Below the pieces are notes generated by a model. That model saw only the letters and a list, made by a program, of their open reading frames with translations, was not told where the DNA came from and did no database searches. A program made the translations under genes and the position numbers. DNA of 44,325 bases from a virus, in the IMG/VR virus record IMGVR_UViG_3300017714_000028, positions 1 to 44,325 of that record; one strand, 5' to 3'. Below, one piece after another: positions 2,501-43,505 of this stretch (positions within the stretch are counted from its first letter, which is position 1; every line of letters starts with the position of its first letter).

Positions 2501-2530
2501 TTACATTAAGTCAAAATGGAGAATATTACA

Positions 2531-3232
2531 ATGACTACATCAACTGAATTTGTAGCACAGCTACAAAAAGACAACGAAGCACTTTTCACAGCTTCAAAAA
2601 TGAACGTTAAAGCATACTTTGAGTCAAAAGACAATTCAATGGAAGCTCTAGTTGAGCATTTCACTGGACGTATGGTTAACGAAAGAATGAACATGGTTGA
2701 GATTTCAGCACAAGTGGCTAACATGCCAGCTGATGCAGATCCTGTTGAATTACAAAACCTTTCAAAGCAAGCGATGGACGAAGCAATTCACTTCCGTATG
2801 GTAAAAGAATGCATCGAAAAAATCACTGGCGAAGAACTAGACGTTGCTGATGCTATGGCAAAAGAAGCGGCTAAGCCACAAGCTAAAGGTGCAGATCTAC
2901 TAGACGCATATGAAGCGGCAGAAGATCCAGCAGCTCTAGCTGTATATCAAATCGTTGCAGAAGGTCGTGCGGCAGCAGTATGGTCACAAATGGCAGAAAC
3001 AATTGAAGATTCATTCATTGCAAAGTCATATGCTAAAATTGCTAAAGACGAAGGATTCCATTCAACTATTGGTGCAATGAAATTAGAATCAATTGCAACT
3101 ACACCAGAAGTTCAAGCACACGTAACAAAAATCGTTGACGGTATGAGAAAAGACCTATTCGAAGTTTCATGTGAAAACACAGTTGAAGCATCTGGTTCAC
3201 GTGAACTAGTTAATGAAGCTTACGGTTGGTAA
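2531..3232 (+). CDS. Ferritin-like diiron-fold protein
   Basis: 233 residues, almost entirely helical. The four-helix ferritin-like metal pattern is visible: a Glu in NERMNMVE, an ExxH in DEAIHF, a Glu in EGRAAAVW, and a second ExxH in KDEGFHS. These are the usual ligands of a carboxylate-bridged diiron site. It could be an oxygenase, rubrerythrin-like or iron-handling protein; the sequence does not choose between them. The start at 2531 is preferred over the in-frame ATG at 2516 because GGAG at 2518-2521 sits correctly before it. A glutamine-amidotransferase-like gene follows after 12 bases with its own AAGGA, so the two are probably one operon. It is cargo, not a known virion part. Confidence 0.75.
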   Translation: MTTSTEFVAQLQKDNEALFTASKMNVKAYFESKDNSMEALVEHFTGRMVNERMNMVEISAQVANMPADADPVELQNLSKQAMDEAIHFRMVKECIEKITGEELDVADAMAKEAAKPQAKGADLLDAYEAAEDPAALAVYQIVAEGRAAAVWSQMAETIEDSFIAKSYAKIAKDEGFHSTIGAMKLESIATTPEVQAHVTKIVDGMRKDLFEVSCENTVEASGSRELVNEAYGW

Positions 3233-3244
3233 GGATTAATTGTA

Positions 3245-3802
3245 ATGAATATTGGGTTAACGCAACGCATATTCCATTACAATGATTTTGCGTATGATTG
3301 TTTAGAACATGGTTGGTACAACCTACTAAGCGATCATACGCTTTTTAATATAGCAAACAATCCAGAACAAGATTTTTCTAATGTAATCAAAGACTTAGAC
3401 ATGGTAATCTTTACAGGTGGCGATGCGAGTAGTCCTAGGATAATAACAGAAATAAGACTACTTACCGAGTGTTATAAACAAAAAAAACCTGTACTAGGAG
3501 TTTGCCACGGAGCATTTTTAATTAATCAACTTGAAGAAGGTATTAATATAGAATGTGAGGATCATTATAAAACGGAACATGAAGTTACAATGGATAATAA
3601 ATCTGTTGTAGTAAACAGCTATCATCAAAACAAAATTTTAAAATTAGCAGAGGGATTTTTACCTACTGCTATCACAAAAGAAGGTGACATTGAAGCATTC
3701 AAACATAATATTAATAAAGTATGGGGTATAGTTTGGCATCCAGAGAGAATGGAAAATCCTGTTCTGCCAAACGATCTAGAACAATTTATTAATAACATTT
3801 AA
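3245..3802 (+). CDS. Class I glutamine amidotransferase-like (peptidase C26-type) hydrolase
   Basis: 185 residues. The triad of the class I amidotransferase/gamma-glutamyl hydrolase fold is visible. The nucleophile elbow GVCHGAFLINQL carries the catalytic Cys at about residue 93. VWGIVWHPERMENP carries the His and Glu near residue 160. An oxyanion-type FTGGDAS segment lies near residue 57. No synthetase domain is attached, so it either releases ammonia for a partner or hydrolyses gamma-glutamyl compounds, as PuuD-type enzymes do. It follows the ferritin-like gene after 12 bases, suggesting a shared process. Such amidotransferase-like genes occur sporadically in marine phages; the substrate is unknown. 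Confidence 0.78.
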   Translation: MNIGLTQRIFHYNDFAYDCLEHGWYNLLSDHTLFNIANNPEQDFSNVIKDLDMVIFTGGDASSPRIITEIRLLTECYKQKKPVLGVCHGAFLINQLEEGINIECEDHYKTEHEVTMDNKSVVVNSYHQNKILKLAEGFLPTAITKEGDIEAFKHNINKVWGIVWHPERMENPVLPNDLEQFINNI

Positions 3803-3822: not shown

Positions 3823-3851
3823 TTGACATCCTGGTATAACTTTGTTATATT
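3823..3851 (+). promoter_or_regulatory. Near-consensus sigma70 promoter for a gene-free unit
   Basis: TTGACA (3823-3828), a 17-base spacer, and TATATT (3846-3851). The expected start is at about 3857-3859, exactly where a 5' hairpin begins (3858-3875). The next downstream gene has its own promoter, so this one appears dedicated to the RNA unit. Confidence 0.85.
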
Positions 3852-3857
3852 AGTAAC

Positions 3858-4058
3858 ATAACAAGACGTTGTTATACGGGTTGGCCGAATAAGTTCTAAC
3901 AAAGCGGAACTAAGGCAATGCCAAAGGAACTTAGCGGTTCGCCTTAGCGGGTGCAGGCAGGTAAGATGACAGTTAGCAGAACCAAGTTTTGTCGGTGCGT
4001 CTTTAGAGGGTGGTATCCTTTGCCCACTTTTAAAAACCTCACTTCGGTGGGGTTTTTT
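3858..4058 (+). ncRNA. Candidate small non-coding RNA of about 200 nt
   Basis: The region between a sigma70 promoter and an intrinsic terminator contains no credible reading frame. The 5' end can fold as ATAACAA/TTGTTAT around GACG (3858-3875). AGTTC/GAACT forms a second stem, and CTAAGGC pairs perfectly with GCCTTAG around 24 bases. A competing stem, CTAAG with CTTAG around an inner GGC-AAT-GCC hairpin, suggests two alternative folds. The base composition is visibly less AT-rich than the flanking genes. It does not match tRNA, tmRNA, 6S, RNase P or SRP RNA by eye. Function is unknown; a trans-acting or host-targeting RNA is possible. Confidence 0.68.
4033..4058 (+). terminator. Intrinsic terminator of the candidate RNA
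   Basis: AAAACCTCAC pairs with GTGGGGTTTT (one G-U pair) around a TTCG tetraloop, and the hairpin runs into six T's. It ends two bases before the -35 of the next promoter. Confidence 0.92.
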
Positions 4059-4059
4059 A

Positions 4060-4088
4060 TTGACTTGTAAATCTAAAAGTTGTATAAT
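4060..4088 (+). promoter_or_regulatory. Sigma70 promoter giving an apparently leaderless SGNH-hydrolase mRNA
   Basis: TTGACT (4060-4065), a 17-base spacer, and a perfect TATAAT (4083-4088). The expected start, six to seven bases downstream, coincides with the ATG at 4095. An in-frame TTG at 4080 lies inside the promoter and would not be transcribed. Confidence 0.8.
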
Positions 4089-4094
4089 AGAGAT

Positions 4095-4643
4095 ATGTAT
4101 TTTAATAATTGGAATCCCCCTACATCGGATAACTTTAGATCACTTATTGATTTTGATAACGGTGTATCTGCTTCATTTGGTTGTAGTTTTACAGAAGGTG
4201 TAGGTGTGTATGCTGATCAAACTTGGAGCTTTTTACTTAACATAGCTAATTGTGGATTAAATGGTGCTAGTAATGATAAAATATGCAGAACTGCAATAGA
4301 GTATTGTAACAAGTATAGTCCTGGAAAAATATATGTAATGTGGACTTTTAAAAATCGTAGAGAAGTTGTTGATGATACTGGAACATTTTTAAAGTTTAAA
4401 GCATTTGATCCTGGATCAAAAAATTATGTATGGCATAAAGCAAGTGCAGAACTGATCAATGATTATAGCGATCAATATAATTATGAAAAAAACAAATTAT
4501 TATTACAAAGTTTTTGTGAAATAAAAAATATACGTTTGTATAGCACAGATGTTAACTGTATACCAAATGATAAATTAGGCAATGATAATGCACATCCTGG
4601 TGTAGAATGGCATGAAAAAGTATACAATTTATTCAAAAAATAA
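4095..4643 (+). CDS. SGNH/GDSL-type hydrolase (first copy)
   Basis: 182 residues. The SGNH-hydrolase blocks are visible: the nucleophile motif GCSFTEG with Ser31, a GLNGASNDKI block supplying the Gly and Asn, and the C-terminal DNAHPG with Asp164 and His167. These enzymes cleave ester bonds, often O-acetyl groups on glycans. No signal peptide is present. The ATG at 4095 is chosen because the sigma70 promoter just upstream would start RNA at that base. There is no Shine-Dalgarno sequence. It sits between the candidate RNA and the fibre genes. A second SGNH protein at 18956 closes the same cluster, so the pair may act on host surface polysaccharide or decorate virion glycans; this is inference. 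Confidence 0.72.
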   Translation: MYFNNWNPPTSDNFRSLIDFDNGVSASFGCSFTEGVGVYADQTWSFLLNIANCGLNGASNDKICRTAIEYCNKYSPGKIYVMWTFKNRREVVDDTGTFLKFKAFDPGSKNYVWHKASAELINDYSDQYNYEKNKLLLQSFCEIKNIRLYSTDVNCIPNDKLGNDNAHPGVEWHEKVYNLFKK

Positions 4644-10003: not shown

Positions 10004-13000
10004 ATGGCTTTTAGACAAATTAAGAGTCCTGCTCTAGCTGATCAGTCGGTCAACACGAGCAAACTAGACGTAAGCGCAATTTCAGGCCAAGGTGCTCTTA
10101 CAACTCTTATTGCAGCGGATGAATTCTTAGTTCACGATTCAGCTAATGGCGCGGTAAAGAAAATTACCTCAGCTAATCTGATCGGTGCTTATGATTCAGA
10201 TGATATTGCAGAAGGTTCTAGTAATTTATACTTTACCAATGCACGTGTTGAGTCAGCAGTAGATGCTTACATAACTGGCGGCACGGGTGTAGATGTCGCA
10301 AGTGGTGTGATAAGCATCGGACAGGACGTCGGTACAACAGAAGATGTTACATTTAACGATGTTACAGTTGACGGTGTTCTATCAACAGACGATTTAACTG
10401 CAACAAACGTTACTGCTTCTGGTAACATGATCGTTACAGGTAACTTAACTGTACAAGGTACTACAGTAACAGTTGATTCAACAACAGTTGCACTTGGTGA
10501 TAACATTCTTGAATTACAAAAAGACGCAACTGGCGCAGCATTAGATGCTGGTATTAGCGTTGTTAGAGGATCAGATGGAGACAAACGTTTCATCTGGAAT
10601 GAAACAGACGACCGTTGGACAACCGAGGGTGAAGACATAAAAGCTGGTAACTTTATTTTAGAAACAGGTGGACAGTTTATTGGTAACCTACTAGGTGACG
10701 TAACAGGCGATGTAACTGGTGATTTAACTGGTGACGTAACAGGTAATGTAACAGGTAACGTAACAGGTAACGTAACAGGCGATGTAACTGGTGATTTAAC
10801 TGGTGACGTAACTGGTGATGTAGCTGGTGATTTAACTGGTGACGTAACAGGTAATGTAACAGGTAACGTAACAGGTACAGTATCATCACTTGCTAACCAT
10901 GACACAGACGCATTAACAGAAGGTTCATCTAACCTATATTTTACTCAAGCACGTGCTGATGCACGTATTGCAGCAGCATCAATTGGTGCTTTATCAGATG
11001 TTGATATTACAGGTATCGCTTCAGGTAACACAGTTGTATGGAATGGATCTACATTTACAACAGCTGATCACTTTGATGGTGTAGACTTTAACAATGAGCT
11101 TGCATCAAAAGATACAGATGATCTAAGTGAAGGTGCAACTAACAAATACTTCACAACAGCTCGCGCACGTAATTCTATTTCAGCAAGTGGCGATCTTTCA
11201 TATGATGCAGGCACAGGTGTTGTATCATTTACAGAACGTACAAATGCAGAAGTAATTGGATTAGCAAGAGGCTCACTTTCAGCTACTAACACTGGCTCAG
11301 GACATGGTGCTATTTCATATACATCAGGAACAGGCGTAATTGATTTTACTCCAGTAACATCAGCAAACATTCGCAGCGAAATATCAGCTGTAGATGCTGG
11401 CGGTGACGGTTCTTTTGCTTATGATTCAGGCACAGGTGCATTTACATACACAGGTCCATCAGCAGCAGAAACACAAGCACACTTTGCTGCAGCTACTACA
11501 GGAACAGGTTTTGGTGATTTATCATACTCAGGTGGCACTTTTACATATACAAAAGTAACATCAGCAAACCTATTATCTCTATTCTCAGTTGCTAACGATG
11601 GTGATATGACTATTTTAACATACGACAGTGCAACAGGTGAGATTGCATCAGATCTTTCAGAAGCAGACATTACTGGTTTATTTTCAGCGTCCAATTCAGG
11701 AACATTTGGAACTAGTGCATTATCATTTAACGCTGGTGCTATTGACTTAACAATCAATAACACAGACATCACAGGCTTGTTTTCAGTAACAGACGCAGGT
11801 GGTGACGGTTCATTAACATACAACAATGCAACTGGTGCATTTACATATACAGGCCCATCTAAAGCTGAAGTATTAGCTCACATTTCAGGTGGAACTGGTG
11901 TAACAGTAAGCGGTGCTGGTGTAATTGCAATCGGTCAAGCTGTTGGTACTACAGATGATGTTACATTTAACTCAGTAACAGGTGACGTAACTGGTGATTT
12001 AACTGGTGACGTAACAGGCAATGTAACAGGTAACGTAACAGGCAATGTTACAGGAAACCTAACTGGTAACGTAACTGGCGATCTAACAGGTGATGTAACA
12101 GGTGACGTAACTGGCGATGTAACTGGTAATTTAACTGGTAACGTAACAGGTAATGTAACTGGCGATCTAACAGGTGATGTAACTGGTGATGTAACTGGTG
12201 ATTTAACTGGTAACGTAACAGGTAACGTAACAGGTAACGTAACTGGCAATCTAACTGGTGATGTAACTGGTGATGTAACTGGTGATTTAACTGGTGATGT
12301 AACTGGTGATTTAACTGGTAACGTAACAGGTAATGTAACTGGTAACCTAACAGGTAACGTAACAGGAACAGTATCAGACATTTCAAACCACGACACTGAT
12401 GCATTAGCAGAAGGTTCAACTAACCAATATCATACAACAACTCGCGCACGTAATTCAGTAAGCGGTGGTACAGGTGTAACATATACAGCTGGTACTGGTG
12501 TAATTGAAATTGGTCAAGATGTTGCAACAACAGCAAACGTTACATTTAACGATGCTACTTTTGATGGTGAAGTTACAATTGAAGGTGACTTAACAGTTAA
12601 AGGTACAACAACATCAGTTAACTCAAACGAAGTTAACATTGGTGACAATATCATTGTTCTAAACTCAGACGAAACAGGTGCACCATCACAAGATGGCGGT
12701 ATTGAAGTCGAAAGAGGTACATCAGGTAATGCAAGATTTGTATGGGATGAGACAAATGATCGTTGGTCAGCTGAAGTATTTGATGGCTCAGCATACGTAG
12801 CAGCTCCTGTTAACATGTCAGCGGTTGCAGCGGCAATGTTCACTGGTAATTTAACTGGCGACATTTATGCAGATGATGCAACAAATAAAGTTCTTGAAAA
12901 TGGAACAGATGGTACAGATGCTACATTTACAGGTGACGTAACTGGTGATTTAACTGGTGATGTAACAGGTGATGTAACAGGAAACCTAACAGGTAACGTA

Positions 13001-14929
13001 ACAGGTAACGTAACTGGTGATTTAACTGGTGATGTAACAGGTGACGTAACTGGAGATCTAACAGGTAATGTAACAGGTAATGTAACAGGTAACGTAACTG
13101 GAGATCTAACAGGTAACGTAACAGGTGACGTAACTGGCGATGTAACTGGAGATCTAACTGGTAATGTAACTGGTAATGTAACAGGTAACGTAACTGGTGA
13201 TTTAACTGGTGATGTAACAGGTAACGTAACAGGTGATTTAACTGGTGATGTAACTGGTGATTTAACTGGTAACGTAACAGGTAATGTAACTGGTAATGTA
13301 ACTGGTAATATTACATCAACTGGCACATCAACATTTACAACTGTTGATATCAACGGTGGTGCAATTGACGGAACAGCAATTGGTGCAACAACAACATCAA
13401 CTGGTGCTTTCACATCAATTAGTGCTTCAGGTCTTATCAGTGCAAACGGTGGTGTATCAGGTAATGTAACAGGTAACTTAACTGGTAATGTAACTGGCGA
13501 TGTAACAGGTAATGTAACTGGTGATTTAACTGGTGATGTAACAGGTGACGTAACTGGTGATTTAACTGGTGATGTAACAGGTGACGTAGTTGGTGATCTA
13601 ATTGGTGACGTAACAGGCACTGTATCAGACATTTCAAATCACGACACTGATGCATTAACAGAAGGCTCAGCTAACCTATACTTTACAGATGCAAGAGCAC
13701 GTGGTGCTATTTCTGTAACTGATTCAGGCGGTGACGGCTCATTAGCTTACAATAGTGCAACTGGTGTAATCACATACACAGGTCCATCACAAGCTGAAGT
13801 ATTAGCTCACGTATCAGGTGGTACAGGTGTAACAATCAGTGGCGTAGGTGTAATTGCAATTGGTCAAGATGTTGCTACATCAGCAAGTCCAACATTTGCA
13901 GGTGCAACAATGTCAGCAGATATTGCTATGGGAACAAACCAGATCACAGGTCTTGGTGCTCCAGTAAACAACACTGATGCAGCAACAAAAGGTTATGTCG
14001 ATGGTGAAGTTAACTCGCTTAACTCAACAATCGCAGCACTAGATACAGATGATATCGCAGAAGGTTCAAATCTTTACTTTACTAATGCACGTGCTGATGC
14101 ACGTATTGCAGCAGCATCGATTAATGATTTATCAGATGTAGATACTTCATCAGTAGCAGACGGTGAGATCCTTGTATATGATGCAGGTAACAGCGAATTT
14201 ACTACTGCAACTATCGGTTCACAGATTTCAGTTCTATCACTAAATGACGTAACTGATAACTCATTCTCAGGTAAGGATAACTATATCTTACAAGTTAATG
14301 ATGCAGAAGATGCGATGGAACTTGTAGATCCAGCAACAGTAGCATGGGCAGGTTACAACAGAACAACTATTGCGGGTAGCAACACAGCTACTTACTCACT
14401 AGGGTTCACAGCTAACCAAGCATATGCACAAGTATTTGTTGGTGGTATCATTCAGGATCCAACAACTCACTACACAATTACTGGTTCATCAATTACGTTT
14501 GCAGCAGCTATTCCAGTAGGAACAGCGGCAGTTGTAATTAACCCAACAGTAGCGTCGGTACCGTCACTACAAGCTGGGTCAGTTTCTTTTGATAAGTTTG
14601 CTACAAATATTAAAGCATACGTTCAGAAAACACCTACAACAGCAACTAACTCTGCAACAACAATTGATACATTTGATGGATCATCATATCGTTCAGCTAA
14701 GTATATCATTCAGGTAGACAACGGCAGCGGAGAATACGAAACACGTGAAGCACTAGTTGTGCATGACGGTTCTGCAGCATACATTACAGAATATGCACTT
14801 GTATACACAGGTTCAGCTCTGTTAGGTGATGCAACAGTAGCTATGAATGGCTCTAATGTAGAACTAAAATATACAACAGCTTCAGGTAACGCAACAGTGA
14901 AGGTTATTGCAACTTACATTGATGTTTAA
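10004..14929 (+). CDS. Giant tail-fibre protein with GDVT/GNVT tetrapeptide repeats
   Basis: 1641 residues. The N-terminus (AFRQIKSPALADQSVNTSKL) is a typical marine-phage fibre leader. Four arrays of the tetrapeptide G-(D/N)-(V/L)-T occupy residues 231-290, 660-787, 977-1104 and 1153-1204, with 15, 32, 32 and 13 units. The first, second and fourth arrays are followed by a shared module (GTVS..NHDTDAL.EGS.N.Y). Non-repetitive beta blocks with 'YDSGTGAFTYTGPS'-like motifs lie between them. Near residue 1330, GLGAPVNNTDAATKGYVD is a classic tail-fibre segment. The last 200 residues hold a beta module like that of the preceding protein. The regular four-residue period suggests a beta-helix or similar long shaft. 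Leader hairpins precede the gene, and a strong terminator follows. Confidence 0.85.
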   Translation: MAFRQIKSPALADQSVNTSKLDVSAISGQGALTTLIAADEFLVHDSANGAVKKITSANLIGAYDSDDIAEGSSNLYFTNARVESAVDAYITGGTGVDVASGVISIGQDVGTTEDVTFNDVTVDGVLSTDDLTATNVTASGNMIVTGNLTVQGTTVTVDSTTVALGDNILELQKDATGAALDAGISVVRGSDGDKRFIWNETDDRWTTEGEDIKAGNFILETGGQFIGNLLGDVTGDVTGDLTGDVTGNVTGNVTGNVTGDVTGDLTGDVTGDVAGDLTGDVTGNVTGNVTGTVSSLANHDTDALTEGSSNLYFTQARADARIAAASIGALSDVDITGIASGNTVVWNGSTFTTADHFDGVDFNNELASKDTDDLSEGATNKYFTTARARNSISASGDLSYDAGTGVVSFTERTNAEVIGLARGSLSATNTGSGHGAISYTSGTGVIDFTPVTSANIRSEISAVDAGGDGSFAYDSGTGAFTYTGPSAAETQAHFAAATTGTGFGDLSYSGGTFTYTKVTSANLLSLFSVANDGDMTILTYDSATGEIASDLSEADITGLFSASNSGTFGTSALSFNAGAIDLTINNTDITGLFSVTDAGGDGSLTYNNATGAFTYTGPSKAEVLAHISGGTGVTVSGAGVIAIGQAVGTTDDVTFNSVTGDVTGDLTGDVTGNVTGNVTGNVTGNLTGNVTGDLTGDVTGDVTGDVTGNLTGNVTGNVTGDLTGDVTGDVTGDLTGNVTGNVTGNVTGNLTGDVTGDVTGDLTGDVTGDLTGNVTGNVTGNLTGNVTGTVSDISNHDTDALAEGSTNQYHTTTRARNSVSGGTGVTYTAGTGVIEIGQDVATTANVTFNDATFDGEVTIEGDLTVKGTTTSVNSNEVNIGDNIIVLNSDETGAPSQDGGIEVERGTSGNARFVWDETNDRWSAEVFDGSAYVAAPVNMSAVAAAMFTGNLTGDIYADDATNKVLENGTDGTDATFTGDVTGDLTGDVTGDVTGNLTGNVTGNVTGDLTGDVTGDVTGDLTGNVTGNVTGNVTGDLTGNVTGDVTGDVTGDLTGNVTGNVTGNVTGDLTGDVTGNVTGDLTGDVTGDLTGNVTGNVTGNVTGNITSTGTSTFTTVDINGGAIDGTAIGATTTSTGAFTSISASGLISANGGVSGNVTGNLTGNVTGDVTGNVTGDLTGDVTGDVTGDLTGDVTGDVVGDLIGDVTGTVSDISNHDTDALTEGSANLYFTDARARGAISVTDSGGDGSLAYNSATGVITYTGPSQAEVLAHVSGGTGVTISGVGVIAIGQDVATSASPTFAGATMSADIAMGTNQITGLGAPVNNTDAATKGYVDGEVNSLNSTIAALDTDDIAEGSNLYFTNARADARIAAASINDLSDVDTSSVADGEILVYDAGNSEFTTATIGSQISVLSLNDVTDNSFSGKDNYILQVNDAEDAMELVDPATVAWAGYNRTTIAGSNTATYSLGFTANQAYAQVFVGGIIQDPTTHYTITGSSITFAAAIPVGTAAVVINPTVASVPSLQAGSVSFDKFATNIKAYVQKTPTTATNSATTIDTFDGSSYRSAKYIIQVDNGSGEYETREALVVHDGSAAYITEYALVYTGSALLGDATVAMNGSNVELKYTTASGNATVKVIATYIDV
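10694..10873 (+). repeat. Coding array 1: 15 units of 12 bp
   Basis: Units such as GGTGACGTAACA and GGTAACGTAACA encode GDVT, GDLT and GNVT. There are 15 complete units, including one GDVA variant. Confidence 0.95.
11981..12364 (+). repeat. Coding array 2: 32 units of 12 bp
   Basis: Exactly 32 in-frame 12-bp units encode G-(D/N)-(V/L)-T. Synonymous variation (GGTGAT/GGCGAT/GGTGAC, GTAACT/GTAACA) shows the array is old enough to have diverged. Confidence 0.95.
12932..13315 (+). repeat. Coding array 3: 32 units of 12 bp
   Basis: Again exactly 32 units, ending in a GNIT variant. It has the same length as array 2 but a different order of D/N and V/L units, so it is not a simple recent copy. Confidence 0.95.
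13460..13615 (+). repeat. Coding array 4: 13 units of 12 bp
   Basis: Thirteen units; two near the end are degenerate (GDVV, GDLI). The array leads into the third copy of the NHDTDAL module. Confidence 0.94.
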
Positions 14930-22242: not shown

Positions 22243-22686
22243 CTACTCAGCTTTATGAGTTTTATAAATTATTTTAACTTTTTTATTAAATTCATTATCT
22301 CTTAATTGTATATTAGCACCAGGATGCAATGGATTAGGATAGTTTCCTATTTTAACCCAAGCATATCCATTACTTTCGTCATTTAGAATAGGAATAAATT
22401 CTTTTTGTACAATAGATACAAAACTATGATATTCAAATTTTTTATTTGGCGATGTAAATTTGTTTAAAGGTATTACTTTTATTATACTCGGTAAAGTTCC
22501 TAATTCTTCATAAATTTCTCTATAAAGTGTTTCGCTTGGTCTTTCGTTACCTTCGCTTTTGCCACCAAAAAAGCCCCAAGTGTTTGGGTGCTTTACTTTA
22601 CTTCCTCGTTGTTGTAATAAAATTCTTCCAGTATTTAAACTTAAAAAAATACAGCCACTTGCTTCAATCATAGATACAATCGCCAA
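22243..22686 (-). CDS. Nudix hydrolase
   Basis: 147 residues. The Nudix box is intact: Gly42-x5-Glu48-x7-REIYEELG (residues 56-63), preceded by the usual WGFFGGK. These enzymes hydrolyse nucleoside diphosphates linked to another group, such as oxidised dNTPs, ADP-ribose or RNA caps. T4 itself encodes NudE. Its start overlaps the end of gp15 by 19 bases, and it is the last gene of the only minus-strand block. It could clean nucleotide pools or act on host signalling nucleotides; the sequence does not specify which. Confidence 0.87.
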   Translation of the reverse strand: MAIVSMIEASGCIFLSLNTGRILLQQRGSKVKHPNTWGFFGGKSEGNERPSETLYREIYEELGTLPSIIKVIPLNKFTSPNKKFEYHSFVSIVQKEFIPILNDESNGYAWVKIGNYPNPLHPGANIQLRDNEFNKKVKIIYKTHKAE

Positions 22687-42618: not shown

Positions 42619-43077
42619 ATGAGTGTTTGGTATAGCAAGGTAACTGCTAACATGGGAGAGATAGTTAACGCTATCTCTCACTATGAAAAAGAAATAGATC
42701 AAGCAAAGTTTGAATGCGGTATGAAAGGCAATTTAGAAAAACAAAGTCGAGACATGCCTGGTATTGTTGAACATCGTTTTAATCAATTGCAAGAAGTTGA
42801 AGCAATACTAGAATATCTAAATACAGAAATGCGTAAATTACGTAGTAATATATTCCGCAAATATTTAGAAAATTATAATAGAGCATTAAGTAGTAGAGAT
42901 GCGGAAAAGTTTGTAGATGGTGAAGATGATGTAGTTAATCTTCAATATTTAATAAATGACTTTAGTTTAGTTCGTAATAAATTTATTGGAATAATTAAAG
43001 CATTAGAAGCAAAACAATTTCAAATAAACAATGTTGTAAAATTAAGAGCGGCAGGATTAGAGGATATAAGTTTATGA
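42619..43077 (+). CDS. uvsY: Recombination mediator, UvsY-like
   Basis: 152 residues, helical and charged. The C-terminal half (DGEDDVVNLQYLINDFSLVR, IIKALEAKQFQINNVVKLRA) follows the pattern of T4 UvsY's C-terminus (SLQYWGILLDFCSGALDAIKS...FAIKHIQDMRAFEAG). The central EYLNTEMRKLRSNIFRKYLE fits its basic helix. UvsY loads UvsX onto gp32-coated ssDNA. The assignment is helped by the uvsX neighbourhood. The ATG directly follows the preceding stop, and its own stop overlaps the rpiB ATG (ATGA). Confidence 0.72.
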   Translation: MSVWYSKVTANMGEIVNAISHYEKEIDQAKFECGMKGNLEKQSRDMPGIVEHRFNQLQEVEAILEYLNTEMRKLRSNIFRKYLENYNRALSSRDAEKFVDGEDDVVNLQYLINDFSLVRNKFIGIIKALEAKQFQINNVVKLRAAGLEDISL

Positions 43078-43505
43078 TTATAGCAATAGGATGTGATCAT
43101 GGAGGATTTGAAGCAAAACGTGAAATTATTAGATGGATTACAGAAAAACGTATTTCAAGTTTCATGGACTTTGGCACACACTCTGGAGAAAGCTGTGATT
43201 ATCCAGATTTTGCAAAAAGTGTTTGCGAGGATGTAGCATCTAAACAATCTCATTTTGGTATTCTTATTTGCGGTACAGGTATTGGTATGAGTATAGCTGC
43301 TAATCGTAATCCATTAATACGTGCAGGTTTATGTAAGGACGTAGAAACTGCTAAATTAACAAGACAACACAATAATGCAAATATATTATGTTTAGGTGCT
43401 CGTGTTACACCAATAGATCAAATAGTAGATATATGCGAAACATTTATTAATACAGAATTTGAAGGTGGAAGACACGAAAATAGGATTGAGAAGATAAATA
43501 ACTAG
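43074..43505 (+). CDS. rpiB: Ribose-5-phosphate isomerase B
   Basis: 143 residues, a near-complete RpiB/LacAB-type enzyme. AIGCDHGGFEAKREI carries Asp8-His9 of the phosphosugar site, ESCDYPDFA is the family's DYPD motif, GILICGTGIGMSIAANR carries Cys66, the catalytic base position in RpiB, and TRQHNNANILCLGARV holds the conserved His/Asn segment. It interconverts ribulose-5-phosphate and ribose-5-phosphate, the precursor of PRPP and nucleotides. It overlaps uvsY by ATGA, so it is made with the recombination genes. Phage-borne RpiB fits a push toward nucleotide synthesis. It is intact, with no sign of decay. Confidence 0.92.
   Translation: MIIAIGCDHGGFEAKREIIRWITEKRISSFMDFGTHSGESCDYPDFAKSVCEDVASKQSHFGILICGTGIGMSIAANRNPLIRAGLCKDVETAKLTRQHNNANILCLGARVTPIDQIVDICETFINTEFEGGRHENRIEKINN
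43493..43500 (+). promoter_or_regulatory. Late-promoter octamer GATAAATA at the end of rpiB
   Basis: It lies inside the last codons of rpiB; the expected start is near 43506. It would serve the AsxRS-like gene. Confidence 0.58.

Follow-up and report, generated by a model that had tools for sequence, protein, structure and literature searches.

The closest described system is the manA class of RNAs, which was described in 2010 (Weinberg et al. 2010, PMC2864571) and placed in potential 5' UTRs (PMC2864571; PMC9964418). Marine phage contigs often carry such RNAs, which Rfam files as cis-regulatory; in the literature searched, we found no functional test of them. Another structured RNA, wcaG, is reported to lie close to manA in phage S-CREM1 (PMC9964418). 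The window analysed here is a whole stretch of 44,325 nucleotides of viral DNA (IMG/VR record IMGVR_UViG_3300017714_000028), in which a first-pass annotation had pointed to a self-contained small-RNA unit at 3823-4058, in a phage cargo block, with a promoter of host type and no RNA class that it could recognise. The unit holds up, as does its accessory position, and two related phages carry units of the same layout; the lack of a class does not, as both the Rfam manA model (RF01745, 35.7 bits) and an independent model (R1, 37.1 bits) find a divergent manA-type RNA. Judged by sequence, the window RNA shares ancestry with manA-type RNAs and is a far-diverged variant of this already known class, carried by a T4-like marine phage. 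The best explanation, to which we give a probability of about 0.72, is a divergent manA-type RNA that forms a transcription unit by itself at an accessory site of that phage and presumably acts in trans.

The sigma70 promoter that had been proposed was recovered with its extended -10 (Table 1), as were the hairpin at the predicted +1 (P1, a 7-bp helix that starts 7 nt past the -10), the TTCG-capped terminator, whose stem body has a pair probability of at least 0.96 in the ensemble fold, and a composition less AT-rich than the surroundings (GC of 0.47-0.49 in the unit and 0.28-0.35 in the flanks). Eight sites in the window match the sigma70 consensus at 11 or more of 12 positions, all on the + strand, compared with 2.3 +/- 1.7 in shuffles. 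Between P1 and the terminator lie about 150 nt of structured sequence. A scan of the sense frames agreed that the RNA holds no credible ORF, and a short-ORF reading was dropped: the sole sense ORF of at least 20 aa, and hence the longest, is a 39-aa GTG frame (3951-4070) that crosses the terminator. ARAGORN, run over the window, found no tRNA. The folding energy is only mildly unusual by itself (z = -1.67), so the case must rest on comparison.

Table 1. Positions of the RNA unit, its parts and the adjoining genes in the window.
Feature	Position	Strand	Remarks
Gene weakly like ribonucleotide reductase small chain	2516-3232
Class-I GATase gene	3245-3802
Sigma70-type promoter, TTGACA-N17-TATATT	3823-3851	+	11/12 match, extended -10 TG; predicted +1 at ~3858
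Divergent manA-type structured RNA, whole element	3858-4026	+	Window-free model R1 and Rfam manA covariance model, both full length
P1, 5'-terminal hairpin, AUAACAA-GACG-UUGUUAU	3858-3875	+	Pair probabilities 0.80-0.94; GACG loop as in the family
Closing stem, 5' strand, GGGU	3878-3881	+	Pairs with GCCC, 4022-4025
Core strand UGGCCGAAUAA, invariant	3882-3892	+	UGGC.GAAUAA columns in the relatives' alignment; also in the Rfam consensus
P2 hairpin, GUUC...GAAC	3893-3910	+	Sits between the core strands; 4/4 pairs covary in the family
Core strand UAAGGCA, invariant	3911-3917	+	GGC pairs with GCC, 3884-3886
P3 domain, poorly conserved	3918-3959	+	Closing by UGCC/GGCA tentative
P4 stem AAGAUG/CGUCUU, with inner hairpin	3963-4003	+	Pair probabilities 0.67-0.97; covarying helix
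P5, terminal 5-bp hairpin, AGAGG/CCUUU	4005-4021	+	Covarying helix 7; closing stem 3' strand directly after
Intrinsic terminator, UUCG loop, AAAAACCTCAC-TTCG-GTGGGGTTTTTT	4032-4058	+	11 pairs, -13.3 kcal/mol
Second promoter of sigma70 type, TTGACT-N17-TATAAT, serving the next gene	4060-4088	+	11/12; begins 2 nt past the terminator
Next gene, SGNH-like	4095-4643	+	Named by motif only (GCSFTEG)

At its gathering threshold, Rfam gave no match in the window. At a relaxed threshold, the manA model aligned over model positions 1-192 to 3859-4030 (E = 7.8e-8). Because the score lies under the gathering score of 55.2 bits, we call the window RNA a divergent relative of manA and not a member. Relaxed matches to istR, RNAI, rsmX and rimP were dropped, since the terminator hairpin accounts for most of each match; BLASTN against phages returned only fragments of the terminator and promoter. 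With a pattern made from the manA core, 119 viral stretches were retrieved, and all 20 of them that were scanned carry manA, at 170-197 bits. Together with weaker members at 77.5 bits (L080) and 51.9 bits (L108), these scores describe a gradient of divergence. A first pattern intended for divergent members gave five stretches without a manA match, which were dropped as chance, and a second brought in further, more divergent manA-type members. The covariance model R1, whose E-values are rough, derives from an alignment of ten divergent phage RNAs of manA type with the window left out. With filters off, its single match in the window is full length, at 3858-4026 (rough E = 3.3e-10); the runner-up reaches 8 bits. 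Moreover, R1 recovers classical manA RNAs (46-65 bits) as well as divergent loci, and decoys with the core pattern from 28 bacterial genomes score at most 14.7 bits. The collections searched, which may omit close copies of the window genome, yielded no second RNA nearly identical to that of the window.

Support for the fold comes from the relatives. In the alignment of the ten divergent members, again with the window left out and with the structure read from one of the ten, the covariation score is 0.60 versus 0.21 in shuffles (0 of 500 reach 0.60), and sliding of the partners abolishes the signal. A combined alignment of 36 distinct sequences has 91% of its cells paired and a covariation of 0.67 versus 0.18; being fitted to the model, it leans towards the model. 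In P1, both partners of all seven helix pairs change among family members. The closing stem, of which four of five pairs form in the window, covaries in relatives (GGGAG/CUCCC, GGGUA/UACCC, GGGAA/UUCCC and GAUAG/CUAUC), and at the first pair of the core stem divergent members differ from classical ones by a G-C to A-U exchange (24 GC, 12 AU). The window RNA itself forms 28 of the 32 model pairs, 14 of which are changed on both sides relative to the commonest pair. Covariation was measured in relatives and not within the window RNA's own subgroup, because no close sequence to it was found. The string at 3882-3892 was part of the search pattern that fetched the relatives and, as most loci were fetched by a core-containing pattern, conservation of the core letters in that set is partly due to selection, which does not touch the Rfam consensus or any stem that lies outside the pattern. 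The UGCC/GGCA closing helix of P3 is a guess, given a pair probability of 0.01. Neither a conserved short ORF nor stems devoid of covariation turned up, two of the outcomes that the first-pass annotation had named as counting against its proposal.

The free-energy minimum of the window RNA is -60.2 kcal/mol and becomes -59.0 kcal/mol with the family helices imposed, which places the shared fold within 1.2 kcal/mol of the minimum. Two competing folds had also been suggested, and the pairings on which they depend, CTAAGGC/GCCTTAG and CTAAG/CTTAG, do exist; the corresponding energies are -55.8 and -52.3 kcal/mol, above those of both the family fold and the minimum. Since each of them needs the CUAAGGC strand, which in the family serves as the invariant core strand, a bistable fold of the RNA, though permitted by the energy rules behind the predictions, is not supported.

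Close relatives of the window phage were found via the gene at 2516-3232 and the GATase gene. Two of them (L240 and L241) carry a GATase that is 97-99% identical, followed directly by a different gene, with no RNA unit there. On the same contigs, a unit lies about 2.3 kb further on (L174 and L172), upstream of a homologue of gene 4704, and its layout is that of the window unit: TTGACA-N17-TATATT ending just before P1, the RNA, and a terminator. The closing stem is GATAG/CTATC and the terminal hairpin GTTGG...CCAAC. Both RNAs match the Rfam manA model at full length, below threshold (L174:6968-7255, 37.4 bits, E = 2.2e-8; L172:6966-7255, 45.8 bits, E = 6.6e-11), and about ten pairs are changed on both sides between them. 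In L275 and L278-L284, the gene 4704 homologue is present and the RNA unit is absent upstream. As these other relatives are without it, the unit is best regarded as accessory cargo, yet recurrent. A nearly identical promoter, GGTTGACATCCTGGTTTAGTTTTGTTATATTA, stands behind a different gene at L171:5990-6039 (same contig as L246), and that contig ends at the predicted start, just past the promoter copy; a search of other viral contigs found the same promoter only in L171/L246. The computation establishes common ancestry with manA-type RNAs, a fold that covaries in relatives, and a layout of promoter, RNA and terminator that is found again in two related phages.

The gene that follows the unit (4095-4643) has no Pfam, PHROG or phage match, and a search for close copies via its protein gave one distant match only. 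Its ATG falls at the +1 predicted for the second promoter (4060-4097), so its mRNA may be leaderless. Boxes resembling T4 late promoters, (T/G)ATAAATA, occur 16 times on the + strand of the window and 4 times on the - strand, and stand 12-70 nt before many + strand structural genes; sites on the + strand include 1331, 4670 (before gene 4704), 17181, 17669, 28607, 32923, 37229 and 38801. With such boxes at the structural genes, the promoter of the RNA differs in type from those of most of its neighbours. Also among the structural genes are auxiliary metabolic genes for an RpiB-type isomerase (43074-43505), a NUDIX protein (22243-22686) and the GATase (3245-3802), and 10004-14929 encodes a 1641-aa protein with long GNVTGDLTGDVTG repeats.

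For the window unit, we take the stand-alone reading to be the most likely one, on the grounds that the terminator is formed in nearly the whole ensemble and that the next gene has a promoter of its own; we do not claim it for the whole manA family. The layout suggests that at least some manA RNAs work alone and not as switches before a gene. Against this, most classical manA RNAs precede ORFs closely (gp32, transaldolase, thyX and Hsp20, by sequence reading), and a terminator close behind the RNA is also expected of a transcription-terminating riboswitch. Such a riboswitch is the rival that survives best: metabolite sensing would control read-through of the terminator at 4032-4058 into gene 4095. 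A cis-regulatory role, possibly that of a riboswitch, is assigned to manA by Rfam and by Weinberg et al. (2010, PMC2864571), and classical members stand before a limited set of genes. Moreover, the terminator of the unit lies 6 nt past the closing stem, and for 24 of 120 manA elements a terminator occurs no more than about 130 nt away. Nevertheless, we consider a riboswitch unlikely here. The terminator stem has a probability of about 1.0 in the ensemble and no comparably strong antiterminator was found; gene 4095 has its own 11/12 promoter immediately past the terminator; and relatives keep the downstream tail-type gene without the RNA. Nor did the fold ensemble of the window RNA show a mutually exclusive pairing (expression platform) of similar strength.

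Some manA elements adjoin tRNA genes. In four (L005, L044, L094, L103), the tRNA lies upstream, a tRNA-Thr that ends where P1 starts, and in seven, a tRNA begins 4-14 nt downstream of the closing stem (L014, L023, L036, L065, L069, L110, L137); in all eleven the tRNA gene is on one side and the spacing is compatible with discrete ends. This proximity is one of the points in favour of a tRNA-derived or tRNA-mimicking RNA, a reading prompted by the likeness of the core to a tRNA D arm and by the way in which the terminal hairpin joins the closing stem, as a T arm joins an acceptor. The closing stem would be the acceptor, the core a D arm whose loop holds a hairpin, and P5 the T arm. Indeed, a two-nt spacer is followed by D-arm-like UGGCYGAAU..UAAGGC, and the 5-bp P5 is joined directly to the 3' strand of the closing stem. 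However, G18G19, a canonical T loop and CCA are all missing, and the closing stem has 4-5 pairs. In addition, a tRNA covariance model (R2, filters off) scored a true tRNA at 69.6 bits and matched neither the tested manA-type elements nor the window element. A tRNA origin or mimicry is thus quite improbable. Two further arrangements were seen among the fetched loci. At L127:3700-4530, ARAGORN calls a tmRNA beside a manA-type RNA with a perfect TTGACA-N18-TATAAT promoter, and in L129, L131, L136, L138, L151, L153 and L156 a second manA-like core (such as ATGACTGAATAAACTAAACTCTGAGAGTTAAAGTAATG) lies about 190 nt past the first, in a tandem-like arrangement.

We regard it as very unlikely that the RNA is a 5' leader or mRNA stabiliser, with P1 protecting the downstream mRNA and a leaky terminator. 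P1 does begin at +1, as stabilising 5' hairpins do, and many classical manA RNAs stand shortly before ORFs, but the terminator is strong and is followed by a second promoter, an invariant internal core is unnecessary for a stabilising role, and the members bracketed by tRNA genes are not directly followed by an mRNA of their own. Chance, meaning that promoter and terminator happen to stand in an AT-rich intergenic stretch devoid of any functional RNA, would fit the z of only -1.67 and the manA match under the gathering score, but is disfavoured as highly improbable by the independent model match (E = 3e-10) and by two relatives with the same layout and full-length manA matches.

In the preferred reading, that of a divergent manA-type RNA expressed from its own unit, unmodified host RNA polymerase would use the sigma70-type promoter to make an RNA of about 200 nt (3858-4058). 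The RNA would be transcribed early in infection and the neighbouring structural genes late. It would act in trans, and its junction core, UGGCCGAAUAA / UAAGGCA, may bind a host or phage protein, which is the most tentative step. Such a protein would most likely belong to the RNA or translation machinery, a partner proposed because relatives lie in tRNA clusters. A wider proposal is that manA-type RNAs are at root a widespread kind of stand-alone phage RNA, early, made discrete by processing or termination, cloverleaf-like and acting in trans on the host tRNA or translation machinery, so that their label as 5' UTR riboswitches would be a by-product of gene-dense genomes; this we hold to be doubtful. 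The present analysis extends the manA family to members under the Rfam cut-off and demonstrates a compensatory change in the core stem. Moreover, the compact promoter-RNA-terminator unit, present in three related phage records, is a natural construct for testing the RNA alone.

Among known systems, the glnA riboswitch and the wcaG RNA of cyanophages resemble the window RNA in being structured RNAs of T4-like marine phages, and glnA elements lie near several manA loci in the scanned viral stretches; both are separate families, for which Rfam gave no match in the window. We know of no function for the T4 species 1 and 2 RNAs (rnaC and rnaD). These (NC_000866) are likewise small, stable RNAs, each encoded by a separate phage gene, and many manA-type RNAs, too, lie in tRNA clusters. 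In contrast, the window RNA lies outside any tRNA cluster, no core alignable with rnaC or rnaD was seen, and it has no counterpart of the canonical tRNA T-arm in the 3' part of rnaC. From manA (RF01745; PMC2864571), the window RNA differs in its score, below gathering, and in having G-C for A-U at the first core pair. Its P3 region (3918-3959) gives no confident alignment with the manA P3 of three hairpins and an ACCA loop, and in place of the terminal loop GGUA...AAUCC of the family its P5 has a shorter one of 7 nt, GGUAUCC, from which the CAG part is absent. It also differs in position, which is not that of a 5' UTR: it has its own promoter and terminator, and the terminator and a separate promoter precede the next ORF. 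What it shares with manA is the full-length alignment and the layout, namely the 5' hairpin P1 with its GACG loop, the multi-branch closing stem, the UG.C.GAAUAA / UAAGG core, P4 and a terminal hairpin that abuts the 3' strand of the closing stem, together with its occurrence in T4-like marine phages.
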